A stretch of DNA of 64,000 nt from Candidatus Eremiobacteraceae bacterium. Its GTDB lineage: Bacteria; Vulcanimicrobiota; Vulcanimicrobiia; Eremiobacterales; Eremiobacteraceae. Every line of letters begins with the position of its first letter. Position 1 is the first letter of the stretch. The notes under the pieces are model-generated. The model did no database searches and had not been told where the DNA came from. It saw only the letters and a program-made list of their open reading frames with translations. Below, piece after piece: positions 8,271-59,627 of this stretch. Where the stretch lies: NCBI GenBank assembly GCA_036511855.1, contig DATCBN010000017.1, forward strand, positions 1 to 64,000. The letters run 5' to 3'. Made by a program: the position numbers and the translations under genes.

Positions 8271-8354
8271 GTACTAGGGCAAGCCTCGCATGCCCAGTTC
8301 TGCAGGAGGGTGAGCAACGCTCACCCATGGGCAAGCGATGATTGCCCTCCTACA
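8271..8354. repeat. R1 hairpin repeat cluster (three arms)
   Basis: Three R1 arms between the GyrI-like gene and the secreted-protein gene. GTACTA-headed arm 8271-8295 has a damaged stem. Arm 8302-8326 carries the covariant stem GGGTGAGC-AAC-GCTCACCC. The reverse arm 8329-8354 ends in TCCTAC and has one mismatch. The two left arms point right and the third points left. May act as a transcription terminator for the upstream minus-strand gene. Confidence 0.85.
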
Positions 8355-24472: not shown

Positions 24473-25116
24473 CGTCCGCGCACGAAGGCGCTACTTCGCC
24501 GTCCAACATCCTGCTCATTCGAGAGCATCGTGCGGCGATGGAATTTGCGAAAGCGCTTTCCACCATTTTCAATCCGTTCTTGTCCGCGACCGCGCTGTTC
24601 GTCATCGTTGCGCACGCCTTCTCGCGATCCACGGTGGAGTTCTGGAAGCTGTCCGCAGAAGGCCTCTTCTTCTTCACCATCGCCCCGCTCGCGTGCTTGC
24701 TCTACCTCTACGTCACCGGTCGCATCTCCGACTTCGACATGTCCGACAGGCCGGAGCGCGAGCGCGTGTTCGCCACGTTCGTCGTCATCTATTTCGTGGC
24801 GGCGATGACGCTGACCATCAATCACGCGCCGGTCCAATTCATCGCGATCACGTGGGGATACTGGGGCACCGCCGTGTTGACCATGATCATCACGCGCTGG
24901 TGGAAGATCAGCACGCACGCATTTGGGATCGCGGGTCCATTCGCCGTGATGTTCTTGCTTTTCCAATGGCAACCGCTGCCGTACGCCATCGTCGTGCCGC
25001 TCGTCTGCTGGGCGCGGGTCTACCTTCGCAGCCATACGCTTGCCCAAGTCATCACCGGCGCCGCCGTCGCGGTGCTTTCTACGGTGATTTTCTTCAAACT
25101 GTTTCATCTAGCCTGA
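24460..25116 (+). CDS. PAP2-like integral membrane protein
   Basis: About 218 residues from ATG 24460; another ATG at 24538 gives a shorter 192-residue protein starting right before the first helix. Around six membrane segments (e.g. FNPFLSATALFVIVAHAF, LFFFTIAPLACLLYLYV, AVLTMIITRWW). The C-terminal motif RVYLRSHTLAQVITGAA resembles the His-containing third motif of PAP2 phosphatases, while the earlier KxxxRP motif appears only as DMSDRPERER. It may act on polyprenyl or lipid phosphates, which would fit the neighbouring cell-wall genes. Convergent with murI, overlapping its 3' end by 23 nt. Confidence 0.65.
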   Translation: MREPTSAHEGATSPSNILLIREHRAAMEFAKALSTIFNPFLSATALFVIVAHAFSRSTVEFWKLSAEGLFFFTIAPLACLLYLYVTGRISDFDMSDRPERERVFATFVVIYFVAAMTLTINHAPVQFIAITWGYWGTAVLTMIITRWWKISTHAFGIAGPFAVMFLLFQWQPLPYAIVVPLVCWARVYLRSHTLAQVITGAAVAVLSTVIFFKLFHLA

Positions 25117-25900
25117 GCGCCACGTGTTTCAGGAAATCGATGCGGATGCCGCTGAGACTTTGTGCGTGGGCGGCGAATTCGTCCTTGTCGCCGCTCACCT
25201 CGAACGATATCGTTCCCGGACTTGCGTCGAGTCCGATTATCATCTGAGCGACCGCCGACGCGCACGCCGCTCCCGGGTCGACGAGTGCGACTCGCTCGCC
25301 CAAGGCGGACATAAACCAGGCTAACAGGTGCGGAAAATGCGTGCAACCGAGGATGACGGTATCGCAGGCCGCTCTGACGATAGGACCCGAGACCGAGGCG
25401 ACCGCGTCGCGCGCGCGCGCGCTGGCCCAGCCGCCCGATTCGACGATGGGCACGAGCGATGGGGCGGCGACCGACGTCACCTGCGCATCGGATCGAAACT
25501 TCAGAATCTCGCGCTCGAAGATTCCGCTTTTCACCGTGCCGTGCGTTGCGACGACGCCGATGCTGCCGTTCGACGAGGCTTCGACCGCCGCAGCAGCGCC
25601 GTAGCCGACCACGCCGACGATTGGCACGGGTGATGCCGGCCAGCCTTCGGCGTCGAATGCAGCGCACGTCGTACCGGATGCGACGATGATCACCGATGGG
25701 TCGTGCACGAGCAACCGGTCGACGCAAGCACTACCAAGGCGTGCGACGTCGGCCAATTCCCGTCCGCCGTACGGCACGTGCGCGGTGTCAGCGAAGTAGA
25801 CGATATCGGTGTCGGACGTCAGCGCGCGAAGCGCCGAAAGCACGGTAAGCCCGCCGAGCCCGGAATCCAGCATTGCGACTCGGCGACGCGGGGAACCCAT
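25094..25900 (-). CDS. murI: Glutamate racemase, first catalytic Cys replaced
   Basis: 268 residues. Opens with AMLDSGLGGLTVLSAL (family DSGvGGLtv, with the acid that assists proton transfer), YFADTAHVPYGGRE, and the second half has VILGCTHFPHLL with the second catalytic Cys. The first catalytic motif is usually ACNTAS; here it reads VASGTTCAAF, so the Cys-Asn pair is Ser-Gly and a Cys occurs four residues later. The enzyme normally makes D-glutamate for peptidoglycan, and its place after the amidase and GerMN genes agrees. Activity with the changed motif is uncertain. Confidence 0.85.
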   Translation of the reverse strand: MGSPRRRVAMLDSGLGGLTVLSALRALTSDTDIVYFADTAHVPYGGRELADVARLGSACVDRLLVHDPSVIIVASGTTCAAFDAEGWPASPVPIVGVVGYGAAAAVEASSNGSIGVVATHGTVKSGIFEREILKFRSDAQVTSVAAPSLVPIVESGGWASARARDAVASVSGPIVRAACDTVILGCTHFPHLLAWFMSALGERVALVDPGAACASAVAQMIIGLDASPGTISFEVSGDKDEFAAHAQSLSGIRIDFLKHVALRLDETV

Positions 25901-25912
25901 GCAATCGTCCTG

Positions 25913-28108
25913 TCAGGGTGAAGGGCCGGGTGTTGGCGGTGACGCCTTTGGGCCCCCTGTGAAATCCATTATACCTTTGACTATTCCTGCCGCGATGCGG
26001 TCGAGGAACGCGGGTTGCTGCAGCATCGCACCGTCGTGCGAGTTGCTCAAGTACGCCGTTTCGACGAGCACCGCCGGCATCTGCGTATGCTTGATCACAT
26101 AGAAGTCTTCTCGTTTGACGCCCGCGTCTAGGATGCCGTCAGCCGTCACGGTCTCATTCTCAACCGCCTGCGCGAAGAGTTTATCCGCGGGCCTCCAGTA
26201 GTATGTGGTTGTTCCGTTTGGCGCAGTAGATACCGACGAGTTGATATGAATGCTGACGAAAGCGGTGGCGCCCGCCGCATTCGCGACGTCGCAGCGGGCT
26301 TGCAGTTCTTGGCGGTCGATGCCGTTGGGATCGCCGACTTCGTAGTCGCCGTCGCGCGTCATGACGACTCGCCAGCCTAGCGCCTTCAATCGGCTTTGCA
26401 CGATCTTGGAAATCGTAAGGGTGAGATTTTTTTCGGTCAACCCGAGATCTGGATTGAGCGCGCCTGGATCGTTGCCGCCGTGGCCGGGATCGATGACGAT
26501 CAAGTCTCCGTGAGTTGGCGCGGCGGGCTGCGGTGTCATGGAAGTCCCCGGAGACGGTTGAACCGCGACGGCGGCCGTGAGAAAACCGGTTCCGGCCATC
26601 GCTGCGTCGGGCGGCGGAGGCGCCGTCTCGATCTCGATACCGAGCTGATTCGTCGTGCCGGCGATCTGGCCCACGCGGATGTCTGTGCTGCGCGAGGGCG
26701 TTATCGATACGCGCACGACTTTATCCGGTGTGATAAAGTGTTGACTGACTTTCACCGAGTTGATGAAGTCGAGCTTCGAATCTATATCTTGTGCGGGGCC
26801 GACGAGGACTGCGTGATCGATGTCGAGCCAAAAGCGGTTGTCGGGATCGCCCAGCCGGTGCCATTCGAAGCTCACCGGACCGTCGAAGGTCAATGTTATG
26901 CGAGTTCCGGTGGGCACCTGAGCGACCGAGACGTCGGTGATTTTTTGATCGACGAATGGCCCGGCTGAAACCGATGGCGATGGTTCCGGCATCGGCTGCG
27001 CGGTGGCGACCGCGGCGCCTGACGACGTGTCCACAGGTTCCGGCAACGCGACCGGAGACGTCAGCGGTGACGGAGATATCGTTGACAACGGTTGAGCATG
27101 ATCGGCTGCTGGTATCGTCGTCGCCGTCACGCCGATATTGCCCACCATCGTCACGGCGTTGGGCGTGGCGGCCGGCGCGTTCGTGCGCAACGCCGCCTCG
27201 CCTCGCGCAACGACCAGGTCCATGCTCACGCTATCAGCGGAGCGATGCGCGGCGAACTTCGCTTTGCCGTCGAACGCGAGCGATAAAGTGGTCGTCGGGT
27301 AGCCGGGCGGTCCGCTTTCTGAAATCGTGGCGCCTAAGACAACCGCATCGTGTACGCCGAGGTTACGCGAAAGATCGGTGCCAAAGCCTGGGAACGACAA
27401 TGTAAGCGTGCGTGCCGCTGTTTGCGCCGCGTACGCGCTCCTCCAGGCGATATGCGCCGAGCCTTGGACGTGAACGATGGTGCGCGCGCCGTCGCGATGG
27501 GCGGTCACAGACTGGATCTGTGGCACGAACACATAGCCGCCGTGGAAACCGCGCACGCCGAGGCCAAGCGCTCGCGCGAGCGGCAGCAACGGCAAAAACA
27601 GATCGCCGTTGCTCGTGAACGGTGCGAACGGAATTGCGGTCGCCGAGCCGTTGACGGACACTGCGTTGCTGCCGACCGTGAAGGTGATCAGTTGGCCGTC
27701 TGCGCGCGTGATCGCGACAAATCGCGTGCCCGGCTGCCAGGCCATGCGCGCAGATACCGCGTCGAGCATGGCGCGCAGACCGGAGTCGTGCGGGGTGACG
27801 ACCGGATCGCCAAACGCAATGCTCAAGTGATCGAACGCGATCTGGCGGCCGGCGACCCACACTTGCGCCTGGCTTGCGCTCACCGTCGCAGCCGTCGCCG
27901 GCGCTGCCAACATCGCAAGTACGAGCGCGATCTGTAGTAGGGCAGTGCGAATTAGGGCAGTGCGAATTAGGGCAGTGCGAATTAGGGCAGTCTGTACTAG
28001 GGCAAGCATCGCTTGCCCCGTCGTTCTTTGTACTAGGGCAAGCATCGCTTGCCCCTTCGTTTGTAGGAGGGCAAGCATCGCTTGCCCACGCCACTGAGTT
28101 GCCCTCAC
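25913..28108 (-). CDS. amiC: N-acetylmuramoyl-L-alanine amidase with AMIN domain and repeat-derived signal region
   Basis: Zn-dependent cell-wall hydrolase. 731 residues from GTG 28108, overlapping the GerMN stop by 4 nt. Residues 1 to about 65 come from R1 repeats (GQAMLALLQ, GQAMLALVQ twice, then ALIRT three times) and run into a signal-peptide core ALVLAMLAAPATAA. Then: stalk-like beta region (about 75-190), AMIN-like beta segments (about 190-300 and 395-500), Pro/Thr-rich linkers, and Amidase_3 (about 535-715) with VIDPGHGGNDPGAL, GLTEKNLTL, VSIHINSS and VETAYLSN, covering the Zn ligands and catalytic Glu. In-frame ATGs at 28078, 28045 and 28009 are other starts. Cleaves stem peptides from MurNAc during division. 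Confidence 0.9.
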   Translation of the reverse strand: MRATQWRGQAMLALLQTKGQAMLALVQRTTGQAMLALVQTALIRTALIRTALIRTALLQIALVLAMLAAPATAATVSASQAQVWVAGRQIAFDHLSIAFGDPVVTPHDSGLRAMLDAVSARMAWQPGTRFVAITRADGQLITFTVGSNAVSVNGSATAIPFAPFTSNGDLFLPLLPLARALGLGVRGFHGGYVFVPQIQSVTAHRDGARTIVHVQGSAHIAWRSAYAAQTAARTLTLSFPGFGTDLSRNLGVHDAVVLGATISESGPPGYPTTTLSLAFDGKAKFAAHRSADSVSMDLVVARGEAALRTNAPAATPNAVTMVGNIGVTATTIPAADHAQPLSTISPSPLTSPVALPEPVDTSSGAAVATAQPMPEPSPSVSAGPFVDQKITDVSVAQVPTGTRITLTFDGPVSFEWHRLGDPDNRFWLDIDHAVLVGPAQDIDSKLDFINSVKVSQHFITPDKVVRVSITPSRSTDIRVGQIAGTTNQLGIEIETAPPPPDAAMAGTGFLTAAVAVQPSPGTSMTPQPAAPTHGDLIVIDPGHGGNDPGALNPDLGLTEKNLTLTISKIVQSRLKALGWRVVMTRDGDYEVGDPNGIDRQELQARCDVANAAGATAFVSIHINSSVSTAPNGTTTYYWRPADKLFAQAVENETVTADGILDAGVKREDFYVIKHTQMPAVLVETAYLSNSHDGAMLQQPAFLDRIAAGIVKGIMDFTGGPKASPPTPGPSP
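27938..28087. repeat. R1 hairpin arms plus 15-bp tandem repeat, inside the amidase 5' end
   Basis: Three forward R1 arms (27994-28019, 28030-28055, 28063-28087) followed leftwards by three exact 15-bp units TAGGGCAGTGCGAAT (27938-27982) and one diverged unit (27983-27997). The 15-bp unit resembles a shortened R1 arm (TAGGGCA shared). All spacings keep the amidase frame, so the cluster is translated. Confidence 0.9.
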
Positions 28109-28632
28109 TGAGCAAATGTCTCCCGCGTGAGTGGCTCGTCAAGCTCCAGATGCCCGCCGGGCAGCGCCGCCTCGATGTGACCGTTTAAGCTGACTTGCAC
28201 CGCGTTAACGCCCGGCAATTCGGTGAGCGTGTACGTCAGCGACTTGAAAAGGCCGGCCTCATCGCCCGCGCCGCCGGCGTAATGCTTGGCGATCGTCCCC
28301 GTCAGATCAACATCAATCGTGGCCTCGTGCTGAATCGCGACGGCCCGGGTATCCGCCGGAAAAACGAGCAGTGCGGTTGTGGGCTCAGGCGGTCCGGATA
28401 TCAGCTGCGAGACGACATACTGCGCGAGCGCTGTGCCGGCGAGACCGCTCGCGGCTGTATAGTGCATCGCGACGAGCGAGTCGCTGCCTGCCTTACAATA
28501 GTATACTGTTATCTGGTGTTGCGCCGGCTGCGACTGGCCGCTGCCGGTCGATTGCCCCCGGTGACCGCAACCTGAGAGCATGGAAAGCGCGGTGCATATC
28601 GCCATCGCGCGCAATAGACGACCCGACATCAT
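28105..28632 (-). CDS. GerMN-domain lipoprotein
   Basis: About 175 residues from the first of two adjacent ATGs (28632), with GGAGGG 13 nt upstream. Lipobox LSGC near residue 20. The GerMN pattern follows: QITVYYCKAG, TALAQYVVSQLISGPPEP, LLVFPADTRAVAIQ, ATIDVDLTGTIAKHY, and LTYTLTELPGVNAVQVSLNG. GerMN proteins are envelope lipoproteins linked to spore germination in Firmicutes and to cell-wall enzymes elsewhere; here it is translationally coupled to an amidase. A perfect 16-bp palindrome sits just upstream. Confidence 0.82.
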   Translation of the reverse strand: MMSGRLLRAMAICTALSMLSGCGHRGQSTGSGQSQPAQHQITVYYCKAGSDSLVAMHYTAASGLAGTALAQYVVSQLISGPPEPTTALLVFPADTRAVAIQHEATIDVDLTGTIAKHYAGGAGDEAGLFKSLTYTLTELPGVNAVQVSLNGHIEAALPGGHLELDEPLTRETFAQ

Positions 28633-28656
28633 GTCGATGAGATGACCCTCCTTGCC

Positions 28657-28672
28657 AAACAAACGTTTGTTT
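28657..28672. promoter_or_regulatory. Perfect 16-bp palindrome upstream of the GerMN-amidase-murI operon
   Basis: AAACAAACGTTTGTTT is a perfect inverted repeat 24 nt upstream of the GerMN start and directly before its ribosome site. Its AT-rich, symmetric form is typical of TetR- or LacI-type operators. The window holds no regulator known to bind it. Confidence 0.5.
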
Positions 28673-28833
28673 TCGCGTTGGCATTTCAAGTCCTGTCCCG
28701 GACTAGGGTGGCATGCGATGAAGCGCAGACCAATCCGCGGTGCACTTTCGAGTTTCTATCGTGCGGCGGAATTTCAACGGCCGCGCGCCCGTCCACTCCG
28801 CGCGAGCATCAGACTTTTGCCAAGATATGATGG

Positions 28834-38733: not shown

Positions 38734-38884
38734 GTAGGAGGGCAAGCATCGCTTGCCCCGTCTCTTTTGTAGGAGGGTGAGCAACGCTCGCCCTTTTTGT
38801 TTTGGGCAAGCGATGCTTGCCCTAGTACGCGCGTAGAAAAAAGGGGGCAAGCGATGCTTGCCCTAGTACACTCGCCCTCCTACA
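38734..38884. repeat. R1 hairpin repeat cluster, five arms, between convergent genes
   Basis: Forward arms 38734-38759 and 38769-38793 (the second with stem GGGTGAGC/GCTCGCCC, a T-G wobble intermediate), then reverse arms 38804-38828 and 38844-38869 with TAGTAC ends, and a half arm to 38884 ending CTCCTACA. Forward arms left, reverse arms right, spaced by T-rich and A-rich linkers. It lies between the convergent TrkA pair and the metalloprotease gene, where a two-way terminator is needed. Confidence 0.92.
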
Positions 38885-59516: not shown

Positions 59517-59627
59517 GTACGAGGGCAATCCGTACTAGGGCAAGCATCGCTTGCCCCGTTCTTTGGTAGGAGGGCAAGCATCGCTTGCCCATCGCAAAAA
59601 ATGGGTGAGCGATGCTCACCCTCCTAC
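59517..59627. repeat. R1 hairpin repeat cluster between efp and the ornithine cyclodeaminase gene
   Basis: Partial forward arm 59517-59528, full forward arms 59532-59557 (GTACTA head) and 59566-59590 (GTAGGA head), linker ATCGCAAAAAATG, and a reverse arm 59603-59627 with the covariant stem GGGTGAGC-GAT-GCTCACCC. The genes on either side converge. Confidence 0.92.

Follow-up and report, generated by a model that had tools for sequence, protein, structure and literature searches.

An amidase gene with a repeat array at its 5′ end

The window is the whole stretch of 64,000 nucleotides analysed from a Candidatus Eremiobacteraceae bacterium (contig DATCBN010000017.1, positions 1 to 64,000). On its minus strand a reading frame of 731 amino acids runs from GTG 28108 to a stop at 25913, and a glutamate racemase-like frame, so judged from its sequence, follows it (25094-25900 of the window). 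The larger frame matches Amidase_3 (PF01520, E 1e-47) and AMIN (PF11741, E 1.5e-4), and its zinc-site residues H543, E559, H621 and E683 are invariant in a four-sequence alignment, leaving the catalytic domain intact. Judged by these domains and zinc residues, the gene is an AMIN/Amidase_3 cell-wall amidase. Its GTG overlaps the TGA of the upstream GerMN gene as GTGA, and the frame continues without a break through a repeat array, as an earlier sequence-only reading had described. The gene order GerMN-amidase-murI suggests a cell-wall gene cluster. The features of the locus are:

28105..28689, minus strand: GerMN (PF10646) lipoprotein-like gene, 5′ of the amidase; its own start is provisional
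25913..28108, minus strand: gene for a secreted N-acetylmuramoyl-L-alanine amidase with Cu_amine_oxidN1, AMIN and Amidase_3 domains; GTG start
28088..28108, minus strand: putative remnant of the old n-region, MRATQWR, placed by orthologue comparison
27932..28087: insert, a composite REP cluster of 156 nt = 52 codons (residues 8-59), delimited by frame arithmetic and orthologues
28063..28087, plus strand: R1/REP copy with GTAGGA head; its reverse reading codes GQAMLALL; ATG at 28078
28030..28054, plus strand: R1/REP copy, head GTACTA; carries ATG 28045, which of the three has the strongest SD-like match upstream
27994..28018, plus strand: R1/REP copy with GTACTA head; ATG at 28009
27931..27990, plus strand: four 15-bp half-REP units, TCTGTAGTAGGGCAG followed by TGCGAATTAGGGCAG three times
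27887..27931, minus strand: putative h- and c-region of the old signal peptide, IALVLAMLAAPATAA, with probable cleavage between ATA and A

R1 is GGGCAAGCATCGCTTGCCC. Three exact copies lie at 28000-28018, 28036-28054 and 28069-28087, spaced by 36 and 33 nt, and the whole window holds 28 matches at up to three mismatches, where 0.10 are expected by chance. Each copy contributes one in-frame ATG (residues 11, 22 and 34), and translation of the array yields GQAMLALLQ once, GQAMLALVQ twice and ALIRT three times, all in agreement with the earlier reading; the half-REP units, with a period of 15, are read on the coding strand as three ALIRT repeats plus ALLQ. Tandem Repeats Finder reports 3.6 exact copies of a 15-bp unit at 27938-27991. 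The tandem array that had been counted as four 15-bp units is present, but it consists of three exact units between two diverged ones and not of four equal units. Each half-REP unit ends with the REP-head core TAGGGCA plus G, and TGCGAATTAGGGCAG is itself a half-copy of the R1 head, TCTGTACTAGGGCA, which the earlier reading had not recognised. Because the 15-bp unit aligns with the REP head, both repeats belong to one composite REP cluster. An independent 15-bp minisatellite was rejected on this alignment and on the finding that half-REP tandems precede full REPs at many other sites of the genome sample described below, most commonly with a spacing of 14 nt. Part of the hydrophobic core is encoded by GTACGAGCGCGATC (27919-27932). 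This segment stands exactly in the 15-nt register and agrees with a half-REP in 12 of 14 bases (background per position 3e-5), so that some of the core is possibly an older REP remnant or layer.

R1 repeats and their RAYT genes

R1 occurs in 343 exact copies in the 3.07 Mb genome, a metagenome assembly of 112 contigs in which repeat copy number may be wrong; the reversed-pattern control gave 0. Its range is one genus, with 20 and 34 copies in two congeners and 0 in 58 other relatives. REP sites were surveyed in a sample of 1.04 Mb (34% of the genome), where in 205 of 217 copies a GTAN tag precedes the 8-bp arm at a distance of two bases. The tag stands where GTAG REPs carry theirs, with a last base that is mostly C: GTAC in 138, GTAG in 54 and another GTAN (GTAT or GTAA) in 13 of the 217 copies. 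The hairpin is predicted at -13.1 kcal/mol, and the dispersed, high-copy palindrome has the size and copy number of a REP. Two genes of the RAYT type (REP-associated tyrosine transposase; PF01797), on contigs C4 and C109, are both flanked by R1. The C4 copy matches NF047646 with E 4e-17, below the curated cut-off of that family, and appears frameshifted in this assembly; in the C109 copy the HUH motif (HVH) and the tyrosine region YYITQNPVRA are intact. From its copy number, its GTAC/GTAG tag, its placement and the two R1-flanked RAYT genes, we infer that R1 is a genuine REP element with its own RAYT.

Clusters of the 1.04-Mb sample contain, mixed with R1, two other REP subfamilies that share its head: GGGTGAGC at 52 sites and GGGCGAGC at 16. 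They are found at 8277-8347, 38740-38863 and 59538-59590 of the window and elsewhere. Contig C6 opens (L103:1-76, G000:C6 start) with the same AIAAALTAVSWSILAQPVLGQASLA as the C4 permease described below and diverges from it at R1; the assembly is probably broken or chimeric at this repeat.

Placement of REP clusters and in-frame copies in other genes

Genes were called on the 1.04 Mb with a simple codon-usage caller. R1 clusters are mostly intergenic and strongly avoid genes, with 8 of 119 inside called genes in sequence that is 89% coding (binomial 2e-94, clusters treated as independent), and REP clusters are enriched between convergent genes (50 of 105, compared with 150 of 928 gene neighbours; odds 4.7, p 3e-12). 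One of the 8 intragenic clusters, located at the end of a contig, was disregarded, and the amidase array is outside the 8 because the caller set the amidase start after the array.

Seven further genes in this 34% of the genome carry in-frame R1-type REPs, which together with the amidase makes at least eight, and the label 'non-coding' that the earlier reading had given to the repeat was too strict. The seven genes are:

L042:3885-5129 (G000:C4:123924-125126): ArsP_1-like permease, nine R1 copies at 42-nt steps in one loop
L045:397-4965, minus strand: NrdJ, a B12-dependent ribonucleotide reductase; it contains an intein and two REPs in frame, which read VLGHASLA and VLGQASLA
L102:9897-10706: ComEA-like protein, six in-frame REPs between membrane anchor and SLBB-like domain
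L104:9076-10719 and L104:4994-5986: iPGM and WhiA, respectively, about 3 kb apart, three in-frame REPs each, near the N-terminus
L103:15017-17086, minus strand: unnamed 690-aa protein, 15-bp units (AGVPS/TGVLS) and the GGGCGAGC REP in frame
L114:10002-11375: TilS, an in-frame inverted REP pair of variants

Orthologues were compared for five of the seven genes (permease, NrdJ, iPGM, WhiA and ComEA), and the REP-coded peptide is missing from the orthologues in all five, with the limit that for the iPGM N-terminus the alignment past the conserved domain is not meaningful; there, as in the amidase, an array at the N-terminus also makes the start less certain. The permease loop has about 122 residues and the corresponding loop of five relatives 7-15; the NrdJ REPs sit in the linker that precedes the C-terminal Cys motif, and at the REP position of ComEA the orthologues carry an unrelated linker that is shorter, about 30 residues. 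A second iPGM homologue, 58% identical, is encoded on contig C31. With its 15-bp units and REP, the unnamed 690-aa protein is a parallel to the amidase.

In six arrays including that of the amidase, all REP spacings (20 of 20) are multiples of three, partly by construction for arrays that were found as open frames; intergenic spacings fall into all three classes. The frame that gives VLGQASLA is used by five of the eight in-frame clusters (p 0.03 if four open frames are equal), and the amidase array is the sole one of the eight to be read in the other direction, the one that gives ATG. In a congener, a called frame of 814 aa contains a lone in-frame REP, VVGQASLAQ (G001 L151:3179-3203), and in-frame REPs may extend beyond this species.

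Orthologue comparison of the signal peptide

The amidase start overlaps the GerMN stop as NTGA, with ATG or GTG, in 10 of 11 testable family orthologues. Relatives thus begin upstream at this stop-overlapping codon. A shared start at a Met beyond the repeats, which the earlier reading had named as the finding that would refute it, was not seen. An inner Met (27911-27913) was also rejected as the true start, since it leaves MLAAPATAATV with no charged n-region and the orthologues start upstream. The signal peptides of the family orthologues are short and plain (roughly 25-30 aa), and the 52-codon insert is absent from every one seen. A frame open merely by chance was likewise rejected via this comparison. 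Joining the flanks of the insert places MRATQWR directly before IALVLAMLAAPATAA and restores a plain leader that resembles those of the relatives, with an n-region of +3 and a core KD of 2.51 (orthologue core range 2.0-2.9). Insertion at the border between n-region and core of an old signal peptide is the simplest reading, and the signal, originally about 21 residues long, would thereby have reached about 73.

A normal signal-peptide core had been noted after the repeats, and it is present: the most hydrophobic run, LLQIALVLAML, spans the boundary at which the insert ends, lies mostly beyond the repeats and is followed by ATA-A. Mean hydropathy is about 0.2-1.5 in the R1-coded stretches versus 2.7 in the core. 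Because the strongest core is mostly downstream and R1-coded hydropathy is low, the repeat appears to have extended the n-region and not to have supplied the leader. These comparisons support the proposal that the coding region of a secreted amidase gene contains a mobile repeat at its 5′ end. Its further step, that the repeat was taken up as start codons and hydrophobic leader, holds to the extent that the REP ATGs are possible starts, but the conserved start lies upstream and most of the core beyond the repeats.

Discussion

In the proposed course of events the RAYT-family element R1 first inserted into the Sec signal peptide of the amidase, at the junction of its charged n-region with its hydrophobic core, probably driven by RAYT and, among the species seen, in this one only. 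The array would then have grown on the spot as whole REPs were duplicated in tandem, in steps of 33-36 nt, and half-REPs in steps of 15 nt, with only frame-keeping changes surviving and the start staying at the GTG coupled to the GerMN stop. The product would be a signal peptide of ~73 residues, of which the first ~59 form a long, positively charged n-region. At cleavage, presumably between ATA and A, the extra peptide would leave with the signal peptide, and for this reason the insertion would have been tolerated and nearly neutral. We regard this scenario of insertion, frame-keeping growth, GTG start and tolerated, cleaved leader as likely.

Which codon starts translation is the point at which an alternative has to be weighed. 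Initiation at GTG 28108 via coupling to the GerMN stop is most likely from the sequence, and internal initiation at REP ATGs in addition to it is possible. If the REP cluster were instead largely 5′ UTR, translation from REP ATG 28045 or 28009 would give a 41-52-residue leader whose start codon, n-region and weakly hydrophobic stretches would all come from the repeat. Every R1 does hold an in-frame ATG, a charged n-region and the same core follow from any of the three, and the SD-like GAAGGGGC 5 nt upstream of ATG 28045 (-7.3 kcal/mol) nearly equals the SD-like GCGGGAGA of the upstream GTG (-7.4 kcal/mol); many N-terminal REPs, moreover, may be extragenic, with translation beginning downstream, as Di Nocera et al. 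caution (2013, PMC3733652). However, a GC-rich hairpin (8-9 bp, -13 to -16 kcal/mol) has the R1 ATGs in its 3-nt loop and the first base of its stem, and its arm also covers most SD-like bases. RNA folding pairs the GTG globally as well, and long-range and local folds disagree on it. The path from the GTG is wholly open, which downstream initiation would not need, and the coupled start upstream of the repeats is the one conserved in the orthologues. We consider translation from a REP ATG in place of the GTG unlikely.

The repeat-lengthened leader could also have been selected, for example because it slows or re-routes export of a potentially lytic amidase or because a 15-bp slippage array adjusts export. 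Perfect 15-bp tandem units slip readily, and the export of some autotransporters is slowed by extended n-regions. Steps of 15 bp, however, keep the frame and offer no simple off-switch; an insert restricted to one species, together with similar inserts at permissive sites of unrelated proteins, argues for tolerance rather than function, and a selected leader seems highly unlikely. Improbable, too, is a bolder scenario in which the R1 family is protein-compatible and spreads as tandem peptide modules in a preferred frame, with the REP starts of the amidase leader tuning export.

Intragenic REPs have been described before. According to Di Nocera et al. (2013, PMC3733652), GTAG and CGTC repeats lie inside genes of several bacteria, including Opitutus terrae and Thauera; the grouped inserts of Thauera and R. 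conorii encode 43-82 aa. With the GTAG REPs of that study R1 shares the short GTA(G/C)-tagged palindrome in high copy, the flanking of RAYT genes, a mostly intergenic placement enriched between convergent genes, and occasional grouping in frame in unrelated genes, N-termini included. Unlike them, R1 most commonly carries the tag GTAC and not GTAG, its amidase insert includes half-REP 15-bp tandem units, and its permease array codes a longer peptide, of about 122 aa. The amidase differs from the described cases in its split signal peptide and in an upstream start backed by orthologues. In the literature searched we found no earlier report of intragenic REPs in Eremiobacterota.

Rickettsia palindromic elements (RPEs) are the classic in-frame case. 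PMC10969869, after Ogata et al. (2000, 2002), summarizes them as selfish palindromes that sit in frame in numerous unrelated protein genes, and to the extent of that summary R1 resembles them in its in-frame copies in unrelated genes at permissive sites. R1 differs from RPEs in its units of about 25 bp, in its arrays, in having a cognate RAYT and in mostly avoiding genes, and its heads are GTAC/GTAG, whereas R. conorii RPE repeats bear CGTC (PMC3733652). A narrow literature search yielded no paper on RPEs inside signal peptides. With the REPIN/RAYT system, in the outline given in PMC3116915, R1 has in common a RAYT gene flanked by its own REPs and the presence of inverted REP pairs; set against that outline, same-orientation tandem neighbours of R1 are commoner than inverted pairs (75 and 20 in the 1.04-Mb sample), and R1 is not purely extragenic.

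In the amidase a mobile palindrome has found its way into an export signal that is predicted to be translated, and the case is a clean one: the original signal peptide can be recovered on paper. For annotation, a REP at the N-terminus of a predicted protein need not imply a miscalled start. The genome, with REP arrays in at least eight genes of the sampled third, among them those for NrdJ, phosphoglycerate mutase, WhiA and TilS, offers material from an uncultured phylum, beyond Rickettsia, on how selfish repeats turn into protein sequence.
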